A stretch of DNA of 64,000 nucleotides, from the NCBI RefSeq assembly GCF_000315365.1, contig NZ_CAOS01000013.1:124001-188000 (forward strand). The letters are read 5' to 3'. Of this stretch, positions 6,386-59,587 are shown in pieces (positions within the stretch are counted from its first letter, which is position 1; each line of letters starts with the position of its first letter). A model generated the notes under the pieces. It made no database searches, was not told the DNA's origin, and was given only the letters and a program-made list of their open reading frames with translations. The translations under genes and the position numbers were made by a program. The stretch comes from Desulforamulus hydrothermalis Lam5 = DSM 18033 (GTDB lineage: Bacteria; Bacillota; Desulfotomaculia; Desulfotomaculales; Desulfotomaculaceae).

Positions 6386-6490
6386 GGCAGCTCTTTTCGC
6401 TTTCAAGCGCTGTTGCCGGTAGTTCGACAAGATTGGCAGGGGCTCAAAAAACACCCCTGCGTTGTTATTTACACCTTTGTCTGCAGCCTG
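6386..6490 (-). repeat. Copy C of the dispersed element (half-element remnant)
   Basis: Only the segment corresponding to one end remains: TTTCGCTTTCAAGCGCTGTT, TTCGACAAG, GGCAGGGG and the outer end ACCTTTGTCTGCAGCCTG. It is clearly diverged. It lies directly behind the spoVA terminator, and no second copy of that hairpin is seen on its other side. Confidence 0.65.
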
Positions 6491-14660: not shown

Positions 14661-14683
14661 AAAGGCCGGGACTACCGGCCTTT
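14661..14683 (+). terminator. Terminator hairpin, left duplicate flanking copy D
   Basis: AAAGGCCGG and CCGGCCTTT form the stem. The 23-nt sequence is repeated identically at 14808-14830 on the other side of the element. It is the terminator of the fdh-tat operon. Confidence 0.8.
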
Positions 14684-14807
14684 CAGACTGTAGACCAAGG
14701 AGACCAAGGTTGTAAAACAAAATGAGGTGGTTTTATGATCCCCTGTCGGTGCGTAGACCGGAGCCAAAGGGGATCATAAACCACCGATAATGTTTGGCGA
14801 CACTCTG
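14684..14807 (+). mobile_element. Copy D of the dispersed element, internally deleted
   Basis: A 124-bp copy with both outer ends (CAGACTGTAGACC and GGCGACACTCTG) and inner inverted repeats (GGTGGTTTTATGATCCCCT / AGGGGATCATAAACCACC) but no central hairpins. The junction is CTGTCGG, a heptamer present on both sides of the missing region in full copies, so a deletion between short direct repeats is likely. It is flanked by perfect 23-nt direct repeats. Confidence 0.85.
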
Positions 14808-14830
14808 AAAGGCCGGGACTACCGGCCTTT
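14808..14830 (+). terminator. Terminator hairpin, right duplicate flanking copy D
   Basis: Identical 23-nt duplicate of 14661-14683, formed as the target duplication around copy D. Confidence 0.75.
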
Positions 14831-16744: not shown

Positions 16745-16895
16745 GCGGGTACTTTATGATTCCAAGTCGGTTGCATGTAACCTTTCGCACCTCAAGTGCT
16801 GCTGGCGGCGTTTGGGTAAGGCCGGCAGGGATCAAAAAAACAGCTCAACTGGCTGCCCAATCTTTTTCTACAGTCTGTTTGTCTTCATCAAGACA
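16745..16895 (-). repeat. Copy E of the dispersed element (degenerate)
   Basis: Weak but ordered similarity to the element in minus orientation: TTTATGAT near 16755, CACCTCAAGTGCTG near 16789, GGCAGGGATCA near 16826 and CTACAGTCTG at about 16869. The central hairpins are lost. It again lies directly behind a terminator (16692-16726). Confidence 0.5.
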
Positions 16896-22120: not shown

Positions 22121-22144
22121 GACAGCCCCCTTCCGGGGGCTGTT
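22121..22144. terminator. Terminator hairpin, left duplicate flanking copy F
   Basis: GACAGCCCCC and GGGGGCTGTT arms around TTCC. It follows the fdh stop by 4 nt. Repeated at 22403-22425 with one C fewer. Confidence 0.8.
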
Positions 22145-22402
22145 CAGGCTGAAGACAAAGGATGTAACCAAGTGGTTTTATGATCCCCTGCCGGCGACTT
22201 GTCGAAGCACCGGCAACAGCACTAGATGAGCGAAAGGAGCCCTTGGGGTGGCGCCCACAGGATGTGGGCGCCAGCCGAACCGGGCCAGGAGGGGCCGTTT
22301 GAGGCGAACCCAAGGGCGACTGTAGCGAATCATAGTGCTGTCGGTGCGTAGACCGGAGCCAAAGGGGATCATAAACCACCGGCAATATTTGTCGACACTC
22401 TG
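22145..22402 (+). mobile_element. Copy F of the dispersed element (full length)
   Basis: A 258-bp copy with outer ends CAGGCTGAAGACAAA and TTTGTCGACACTCTG and inner repeats GTGGTTTTATGATCCCCT / AGGGGATCATAAACCAC. The nested arms CAGCAC/GTGCTG and CCCTTGGG/CCCAAGGG surround the hairpin GGCGCCCAC/GTGGGCGCC. It is flanked by 24/23-nt direct repeats, each a complete terminator. It sits between convergent genes (fdh and the chemoreceptor). Confidence 0.9.
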
Positions 22403-22427
22403 GACAGCCCCTTCCGGGGGCTGTTAT
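22403..22427. terminator. Terminator hairpin, right duplicate flanking copy F
   Basis: Second copy of the GACAGCCCC/GGGGCTGT hairpin followed by TATTTAAT. It abuts the stop codon of the minus-strand chemoreceptor and may serve it in the other direction. Confidence 0.75.
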
Positions 22428-24647: not shown

Positions 24648-24762
24648 TGCTCCTCCGGATTGTGGACAAGCCTTGCCGGCGGTTTATCACCGTTCCGGTT
24701 TTCGCACCGCCGGCAGGGAATCATAAAACCACCGTAAACTTGTTTGTACAACTTTGTTGACA
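24648..24762 (-). repeat. Copy G of the dispersed element (rearranged remnant)
   Basis: The right-hand part matches the element in minus orientation: GCCGGCAGGGAATCATAAAACCACC (24709-24733) and the outer end ACAACTTTGTTGAC. The left part (TTGCCGGCGGTTTATCACCG) is rearranged. It lies close to the terminator at 24587-24620. Confidence 0.6.
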
Positions 24763-26331: not shown

Positions 26332-26550
26332 TTATTGTCACTCCGGGAACCGACGGCACTATGATTCGCACCGGCCCTTGGGATTGCCTCAAACGCCCCC
26401 TTTTGGACCGGTCCGGCCGGCGCCCACATTATGCGGGCGCCCCCCAATGGCTCCTTTCGCTCATCAAGTACTGTTACCGGTGCTTCGACAAGTTGCCGAC
26501 AGGGGATCATAAAACACTCCCCTTGTTTTACAACCTTTGTCTACAGTCTG
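26332..26550 (-). repeat. Copy H of the dispersed element, one end lost
   Basis: The element in minus orientation from about CGACGGCACTATGATTCG to the outer end TTTGTCTACAGTCTG (26536-26550), with the central hairpin GGCGCCCAC...GCGGGCGCC partly diverged. The end facing the hydrogenase promoter is truncated. The outer end on the other side supplies the last codons and stop of the minus-strand gene 26541-26777. Confidence 0.8.
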
Positions 26551-30033: not shown

Positions 30034-30055
30034 GATGCCCGATTAACGGGCATCC
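30034..30055 (+). terminator. Terminator hairpin, left duplicate flanking copy I
   Basis: GATGCCCG/CGGGCATC hairpin behind the activase operon. Repeated at 30321-30340 with one mismatch in the loop region. Confidence 0.75.
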
Positions 30056-30320
30056 CAGAGCGTCGACAAACGTTATCGGTGGTTTATGATCCCCTTTGGC
30101 TCCGGTCTACGCACCGACAGCACTATGATTCGCTACGGTCGCCCTTGGGGTCGCCTCAAACGGGCCATCCTGGCCCGGTTCGGCTGGCGCCCACGTCCTG
30201 TGGGCGCCCCCCCAAGGGCTCCTTTCGCTCATCAAGTGCTGTTACCGGTGCTTCGACAAGTCGCCGACAGGGGATCATAAAACCACCTTCCCTTGTTTTA
30301 CAACCTTTGTCTCCAGTCTG
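30056..30320 (-). mobile_element. Copy I of the dispersed element (full length)
   Basis: A 265-bp copy in minus orientation with outer ends CAGAGCGTCGACAAA and TTTGTCTCCAGTCTG and inner repeats GGTGGTTTATGATCCCCT / AGGGGATCATAAAACCACC. The nested pair CCCTTGGGG/CCCCAAGGG is fully complementary here. Flanked by direct repeats of about 20-22 nt, each a hairpin. Predicted proteins of about 64 residues across it are translations of the repeat and are not genes. Confidence 0.9.
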
Positions 30321-30344
30321 GATGCCCGTTTAACGGGCATTTTC
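30321..30344 (+). terminator. Terminator hairpin, right duplicate flanking copy I
   Basis: GATGCCCGTT/AACGGGCAT stem followed by TTTTC. Second copy of the activase-operon terminator. Confidence 0.8.
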
Positions 30345-33267: not shown

Positions 33268-33291
33268 TAACCTGCCTGTTAGGGCAGGTTT
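33268..33291 (+). terminator. Terminator hairpin, left duplicate flanking copy J
   Basis: AACCTGCC/GGCAGGTT hairpin 2 nt after the stop of the 55-residue gene. The 24-nt sequence is repeated exactly at 33555-33578. Confidence 0.85.
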
Positions 33292-33554
33292 CAGACTGTA
33301 GACAAAGGTGTAAAACAAAGTGAAGTGGTTTTATGATCCCCTGTCGGCGACTTGTCGAAGCACCGGTAACAGCACTTGATGAGCGAAAGGAGCCATTGGG
33401 GTGGCGCCCACAGGACGTGGGCGCCAGCCGAACCGGGCCAGGATGGCCCGTTTGAGGCGACCCCAAGGGCGACCGTAGCGAATCATAGTGCTGTCGGTGT
33501 GTAGACCGGAGCCAAAGGGGATCATAAGACACCGATATGTTTGTCGACATTCTG
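33292..33554 (+). mobile_element. Copy J of the dispersed element (reference full-length copy)
   Basis: A 263-bp copy exactly bounded by perfect 24-nt direct repeats. Outer inverted ends are CAGACTGTAGACAAA and TTTGTCGACATTCTG; the inner end is GTGGTTTTATGATCCCCT with GGGGATCAT opposite. Inside are ACAGCAC/GTGCTGT, TTGGGG/CCCCAA, then the hairpin TGGCGCCCAC/GTGGGCGCCA and CGGGCC/GGCCCG. No ORF is conserved between copies. Confidence 0.92.
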
Positions 33555-33582
33555 TAACCTGCCTGTTAGGGCAGGTTTTTTG
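33555..33582 (+). terminator. Terminator hairpin, right duplicate flanking copy J
   Basis: Second copy of the AACCTGCC/GGCAGGTT hairpin, followed by TTTTTTG. Confidence 0.88.
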
Positions 33583-55675: not shown

Positions 55676-55757
55676 AGTCGCTCAGCAAGTGCTGTGACAG
55701 GTGTTGTGACAAGTTGCCGGCCGGGTGATCATAAACCACCGGCAAGGTTGGTTAACT
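55676..55757 (-). repeat. Copy K of the dispersed element (remnant)
   Basis: A short remnant in minus orientation: CGCTCAGCAAGTGCTGT, TGTGACAAGTTGCCGG and TGATCATAAACCACCGGCAA. The outer end and the central hairpins are missing. It lies between aroA and its probable terminator. Confidence 0.65.
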
Positions 55758-59265: not shown

Positions 59266-59293
59266 ATGCGGCTGCCTTATAGGCAGCCGCTTT
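59266..59293 (+). terminator. Terminator hairpin, left duplicate flanking copy L
   Basis: GCGGCTGCC/GGCAGCCGC hairpin followed by TTT, 10 nt after the ispH-rpsA stop. Repeated at 59556-59583 with one mismatch. Confidence 0.85.
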
Positions 59294-59555
59294 AGAGTGT
59301 CGACAAAGGTTGTAAAACAAAGTGAGGTGGTTTTATGATCCCCTGCCGGCGACTTGTCGAAGCACCGGTAACAGCACTTGATGAGCGAAGGAGCCATTGG
59401 GCTGGCGCCCACAGGACGTGGGCGCCAGCCGAACCGGGCCAGGAGGGCCCGTTTGAGGCGACCCCAAGGGCGAACGGAGCGAATCATAGTGCTGTCGGTG
59501 CGTAGACCGGAGCCAAAGGGGATCATAAACCACCGATAATGTTTGTCTACAATCT
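59294..59555 (+). mobile_element. Copy L of the dispersed element (full length)
   Basis: A 262-bp copy with ends AGAGTGTCGACAAA and TTTGTCTACAATCT, inner repeats GGTGGTTTTATGATCCCCT / AGGGGATCATAAACCACC, and an intact hairpin TGGCGCCCAC/GTGGGCGCCA. It is very similar to copy J 26 kb away. Flanked by 28-nt direct repeats, each the ispH-rpsA terminator. Confidence 0.92.
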
Positions 59556-59587
59556 ATGCGGCTGTCTTATAGGCAGCCGCTTTTAAT
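59556..59587 (+). terminator. Terminator hairpin, right duplicate flanking copy L
   Basis: GCGGCTGTC/GGCAGCCGC hairpin followed by TTTTAATTTT. One substitution relative to the left copy leaves a G-U pair. Confidence 0.85.

Follow-up and report, generated by a model that had tools for sequence, protein, structure and literature searches.

IS1272 and TnSha1 of Staphylococcus use hairpin targets of unrelated sequence, many of which are transcription terminators; IS1272 takes the place of the hairpin that it targets, without any duplication, and RNA-seq has confirmed that its targets include terminators (PMC5678879, PMC4923244). In a hypothetical pathway b, joining at the 5′ foot would duplicate the whole stem-loop (PMC5678879). 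Palindromic targets are known for members of the IS1182 family. Its mechanisms are varied: a target may or may not be duplicated or deleted, and sites are selected by sequence or by structure (PMC12056078). For ISPse1, repeats of 4 bp are listed (PMC3281130).

Here we analyze a family of short repeats in a 64,000-nucleotide stretch of DNA (the window) from a Desulforamulus genome (G000; 2.69 Mb in 16 contigs, rated 99.9% complete), hereafter the host genome. We consider it very probable that these repeats are IS1182-derived MITEs that were moved by a transposase acting in trans and that duplicate whole hairpins, mostly at terminators and at low cost. The family shares with IS1272 and TnSha1 an IS1182-family transposase and hairpin targets, but the transposases are only ~25% identical, and where IS1272 deletes the hairpin the host-genome family duplicates it whole; the two are mirror images, and comparing them could show what decides between copying and deleting a hairpin. 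ISPse1, ISCfr1 and a Pseudoalteromonas IS1182 element belong to the same transposase family, yet the transposases of the latter two are about 26–28% identical, the Pseudoalteromonas copy shows a 4-bp TACC repeat, and ISCfr1 sits at a palindrome center without hairpin duplication. This last arrangement, at CGGCCGA / TCGGCCG on Citrobacter and Salmonella plasmids, is a third target behavior within the IS1182 family. DDE transposases mostly make a short target duplication of fixed length. The ISEfa7-type IS1182 elements of Enterococcus plasmids have transposases 52–54% identical, CAGACTGTAGACAA ends and duplicated hairpins but are autonomous; a report of hairpin duplication by these elements was not found in the open-licence literature.

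Like bacterial MITEs and other small repeats such as RUP, BOX, ERIC and Chunjie (PMC10969869), the copies are short, numerous, extragenic and geneless and have inverted ends; that review does not mention IS1182, and a term search of it returned no passage on terminator-hairpin duplication. IS elements that target REP palindromes likewise use palindromic extragenic sites, but REPs are repeated sequence families, whereas the targets in the host genome share shape only (PMC1525189). The kind of element is known; its target behavior, duplication of a whole hairpin, is unusual and, within the open-licence literature searched, undescribed, an earlier demonstration not having been found there and the outcome having been drawn only as a hypothetical pathway.

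Copies in the window

The original prediction listed twelve copies (A to L), and all of them are real: a repeat search recovers the family members in the window, with A, B, C, E, G, H and K truncated or decayed. The ends are common to the family and no copy holds a transposase gene, in agreement with the shared inverted ends and lack of a conserved ORF described at the outset. At D, F, I, J and L the local hairpin is seen on both sides, as had been proposed. The predicted repeat lengths are exact at J, where direct reading places the same 24-nt TAACCTGCCTGTTAGGGCAGGTTT at 33268–33291 and 33555–33578 around the element at 33292–33554, but at some sites the two repeats differ by one to a few bases (24/23 nt at F, one mismatch at I). 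The features, in window coordinates, are as follows.

33268–33291, + strand: J, left copy of the target hairpin, 24 nt, its T-tract severed by the element; no terminator call
33292–33554, + strand: J, MITE with IS1182-type ends CAGACTGTAGACAAA / TTTGTCGACATTCTG
33353–33507, + strand: J, interior match to TwoAYGGAY (RF01731), 58 bits, gathering score 43
33555–33578, + strand: J, right copy of the target hairpin, with T-tract; predicted functional terminator
14661–14683, + strand: D, left hairpin copy, AAAGGCCGGGACTACCGGCCTTT
14684–14807, + strand: D, MITE of 124 bp with an internal deletion, both ends kept
14808–14830, + strand: D, right hairpin copy
22121–22144, + strand: F, left hairpin copy, GACAGCCCCCTTCCGGGGGCTGTT
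22145–22402, + strand: F, MITE of 258 bp, RF01731 core at 22200–22354
22403–22425, + strand: F, right hairpin copy, one C shorter than the left
30034–30053, + strand: I, left hairpin copy, GATGCCCGATTAACGGGCAT
30056–30320, − strand: I, MITE of 265 bp in reverse orientation, RF01731 core at 30104–30258 (−)
30321–30340, + strand: I, right hairpin copy, with one mismatch to the left
59266–59293, + strand: L, left hairpin copy, 28 nt
59294–59555, + strand: L, MITE, RF01731 core at 59355–59508; ends uncertain by 1–2 nt
59556–59583, + strand: L, right hairpin copy, one mismatch to the left
1–232, − strand: A, partial copy at the window edge, RF01731 core at 20–173 (−)
2067–2298, + strand: B, decayed copy, right hairpin AGGGACACCCTTAACAGGTGTCCCT overlapping the element end
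6386–6490, − strand: C, truncated copy with one recognizable end
16745–16895, strand not given: E, decayed copy
24648–24762, strand not given: G, short decayed copy
26332–26550, − strand: H, one end intact (26536–26550), the other decayed
55676–55757, strand not given: K, fragment

A transposase partner from the IS1182 family

A transposase gene flanked by the same ends, sought as the original prediction had suggested, is found in Desulforamulus putei (G001) and in two further congeneric genomes, G008 and G004, and belongs to the IS1182 family. The D. putei element (1604 bp) and the G008 elements (1607 bp, five full transposase copies) have the same ends as the MITEs, of a CAGACTGTNGACAAA type common to the insertion sequences of both genomes and the repeats of the host genome, and in each a single long ORF of ~490 aa lies between terminal inverted repeats; G004 contains three transposase copies (54–55% identical). 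The five insertions in G008 and three in G004 sit between identical hairpins of 21–34 nt. The transposases score 456 and 447 bits against the NCBIfam IS1182 model NF033551 (cut-off 270) and match Pfam PF13751, PF05598 and PF01609 (DDE_Tnp_1_6, DUF772 and DDE_Tnp_1). An early hint at an IS1549/IS1634-type element fails: the IS1634 family model gives 22.6 and 23.9 bits, below its cut-off of 100. Neither IS1202 nor a group II intron is a likely match for a DDE transposase of the IS1182 family with target duplication, and both were rejected.

The repeats are best explained as MITEs, non-autonomous forms derived from an insertion sequence of the IS1182 family whose terminal repeats are of the CAGAnTGTnGACAAA type: they lack a transposase gene, occur in high copy number, are flanked by a target duplication and measure ~42–280 bp. 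Derivatives of 42, 57 and ~110 bp retain both ends and the duplicated hairpin, so the size of the element seems to matter little and the two ends alone may suffice, these small forms having either moved as such or shrunk in place. The matching transposase occurs in the three congeneric genomes but not in the host, which seems to have lost it; the search of the host genome for an IS1182 transposase returned best matches of ~25% identity (E 3e-4). Because the gene is missing, the host copies are best described as an orphaned MITE family, unless an assembly gap hides the gene, and its absence limits current mobility, not descent. Another MITE family, found in D. putei, shares the IS1182-type ends but has an unrelated interior; direct repeats flank two of its four recorded loci, and one of these repeats is a hairpin of ~21 bp.

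Flanking hairpins in the host genome

The family numbers ~100 copies in the host genome, and elements resembling J occur at least 40 times at 91–100% identity among the matches listed; these and the following host counts cover copies fetched by search and by stretches and are not a complete census. The end motif CAGANTGTNGACAAA, allowing at most one mismatch, has 168 matches, versus 5 for the reversed control. In nearly all of the first 30 full copies a hairpin adjoins each side, identical or nearly so within a locus and different between loci. Direct repeats and terminator association, which the original prediction had wished to see verified at other genomic copies, are both present. A flanking direct repeat scores 9 or more in 61 of 64 end-to-end copies (median score 19), a level reached by only 7 of 600 flank pairs drawn from different copies; the remaining three copies have no clear duplication. 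The repeats are 10–31 nt long (median 23), and their mean folding energy is ~−13 kcal/mol, versus −2.7 for local controls.

Terminator-like tails, defined as a T-rich stretch after the right hairpin copy or an A-rich stretch before the left one, accompany 53 of the 61 sites, versus 12% of control positions. Convergent neighboring genes are found at 18 of the 33 scorable loci, tandem ones at 14 and divergent ones at a single locus; 32 of the 33 have a gene whose end faces the element, and the median distance from stop codon to element is 35 nt. Together, tails, gene orientation and short stop-codon distance indicate that the targets are mainly intrinsic terminators; eight of the 61 have neither T- nor A-tail, and a terminator as such is therefore not required.

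The two hairpin copies differ at 32 of 822 stem positions versus 21 of 271 loop positions in pairs of equal length, and 17 of the 32 stem differences retain pairing through G-U. This uncontrolled contrast between stem and loop is suggestive of purifying selection on both copies, for which we make no claim; an impression by eye of compensatory stem changes was not borne out by the count in equal-length pairs. At one place in the host genome (contig C10, 83900–86600), a segment of ~718 bp with a 114-bp element is apparently repeated in tandem.

Breadth across Firmicutes

A scan of bacterial genomes yields 80 loci for related transposases, most of them spread over many genera of Firmicutes. Of 68 relatives in other Firmicutes analyzed by script, at least 33 have the element between direct repeats of a whole hairpin (for example, AGGCGGTCCCTATAGGGGATCGCCT and AAAGATCGGGCCGAAGCCCGATCTTT), which is often preceded by an A-tract and followed by a T-tract; some targets have no T-tract. 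About 13 further relatives have complete hairpins that differ between left and right, as do most copies in the congeneric genome G007, where a parallel family has CAGCCTGTTGAAAAA / CTCGACAATCTG ends. Nine left-over hairpin halves in G007 match a half at another copy, which points to flanks having been swapped among copies, whether through recombination or because the draft genome was misassembled. Copies in Thermoanaerobacter wiegelii were set aside, their ends being disrupted by other sequence.

Whole-hairpin duplication looks like the rule of one IS1182 clade with CAGACTGT-type ends. On balance, we favor the broader view that this Firmicute clade picks targets by hairpin shape alone, that the stem sets the duplication length and the entered terminator is regenerated, and that MITEs as small as two ends colonized the gene 3′ ends of a genome lacking the enzyme.

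Target recognition and the cost of insertion

We posit that a DDE transposase, supplied in trans and now absent from the host genome, would join the two 3′ ends of the element to the 5′ feet of the target, a short hairpin or a cruciform, with one junction on each strand. Gap repair would then copy the whole hairpin, giving a duplication whose length is set by the stem (~16–35 bp) and is not fixed. The targets have no evident common sequence and the duplication length follows the stem, which suggests that hairpin structure itself is recognized. With the duplication equal to the target hairpin, the chemistry would be tied to DNA structure, and cruciform sensing by the transposase becomes a testable question.

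Two other accounts of target choice deserve weight. It is conceivable, though in our judgment unlikely, that what the transposase recognizes is a symmetric duplex, its half-sites contacted by a dimer without any extruded hairpin, and that flexible spacing accounts for the variable length. The targets are near-perfect palindromes, A-rich at the left foot and T-rich at the right, and could be bound in this way, but a motif is not evident, a span of 16–35 bp would be hard for a rigid dimer, and stem plus loop fits the duplication in nearly all cases. Less likely still, insertion could be coupled to transcription termination, through a paused polymerase or an R-loop rather than the hairpin itself. 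The tails at 53/61 targets and the genes ending toward the element at 32/33 loci are what such coupling would produce, yet it leaves the 8/61 tailless targets and the Firmicute targets without T-tracts to be explained, and IS1272, a distant relative, also uses intragenic hairpins (PMC5678879).

Recognition of the hairpin remains the reading that we prefer. Perfect short hairpins outside genes are mostly intrinsic terminators, so most insertions would land in terminators. Termination should be preserved overall after insertion, because the duplicated hairpin leaves an outer copy with its own tail: in each direction the outer hairpin would retain its T-tract, transcription would still stop, and the cost of insertion would be low, which would permit an increase in copy number. 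A rebuilt terminator would thus be a simple reason for high copy number in a compact genome. The proposal that both sides keep intact termination is valid when each direction is taken overall but not for every single hairpin; at J only the right hairpin scores as a terminator, the upstream copy having lost its T-tract.

The element interior

The window contains five RF01731 matches (51.6–62.9 bits, gathering threshold 43), which form the middle of full-length, ~260-bp copies and occur in both orientations. TwoAYGGAY was listed among probable RNAs and judged unlikely to be cis-regulatory (Weinberg et al. 2010; PMC2864571), whereas Rfam types the family as a cis-regulatory RNA. Here the cores match it above its gathering score, and it is the interior of a transposable element. 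That TwoAYGGAY is a functional cis-regulatory or 3′-UTR RNA under selection at each site, with the mobile-element signal secondary, strikes us as quite improbable. Two facts favor this idea: the Rfam assignment, and the occurrence of RF01731 in 27 of 113 genomes from the order, where it sometimes has other arms and no IS1182 ends. Against it, the core has no preferred orientation to the terminator in the host genome (23 copies sense, 31 antisense and 8 undecided), as a passenger would be expected to behave, many copies with deleted cores keep both ends, and the sites are otherwise unrelated. At least some catalogued TwoAYGGAY members form the inside of a transposon, which calls for care when RNAs are discovered by covariation.

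Three further observations concern this core. The J core (33410–33470) and other RF01731 cores contain two hairpins with GGA loops, CACAGGACGTG and CCAGGATGG, which resemble CsrA-binding loops. In genome G046, TwoAYGGAY lies inside a different, nearly identical repeat of ~500 bp with terminator-like hairpins at its borders and without IS1182-type ends. At five loci in G005 and G008, TwoAYGGAY cores have GGGTATGGTGTTATCC / GGATAACACCATACCC arms in most copies, and CAGACTG ends and hairpin duplication were not seen there.

Origin of the duplicated hairpin

The loci orthologous to J and I in D. putei are element-free and carry one terminator hairpin each, the hairpin at I being the same TGCCCG...CGGGCA; those orthologous to D, L and B are also element-free with one hairpin each, which at L differs in sequence. 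These comparisons are between species (~80% identical) and not with a sister strain. Near-identical empty sites were obtained for autonomous relatives inserted in Enterococcus plasmids and in a Streptococcus phage: four queries of 280 bases, each joining the flanks around one hairpin copy, match records over 280/280 bases at 99.6–100% identity, with a single hairpin. A whole-hairpin direct repeat flanks the insertion at 7/7 distinct plasmid and phage sites. The palindrome of a nested G008 insertion is absent from the corresponding G003 locus, which therefore does not bear on the question.

Since unoccupied sites carry a single hairpin, the duplication is made at insertion and the repeat derives from the target. 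The empty sites thus bear out the claim that the repeat comes from the target and not the element, and two pre-existing terminator copies, which would have spoken against it, were not found there; the original reading of a miniature, terminator-duplicating element with a target-derived repeat is largely supported. Stem-loop replacement of the IS1272 type is rejected, for a hairpin stands on both sides in 61/64 copies and empty sites carry one. That the element carries the hairpin, or that each site already had two terminators, is almost certainly wrong despite the sites with two different hairpins, because the hairpin differs from site to site and single-hairpin empty sites occur at nine loci (five interspecies, four near-identical).

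One orthologous terminator holds a 57-bp element in the host genome (contig C13, 64099–64155) and a 265-bp element of opposite orientation in D. putei (G001, contig C37, 137710–137974), so that either this hairpin was entered twice independently, or one insertion was inherited and has since flipped and shrunk.
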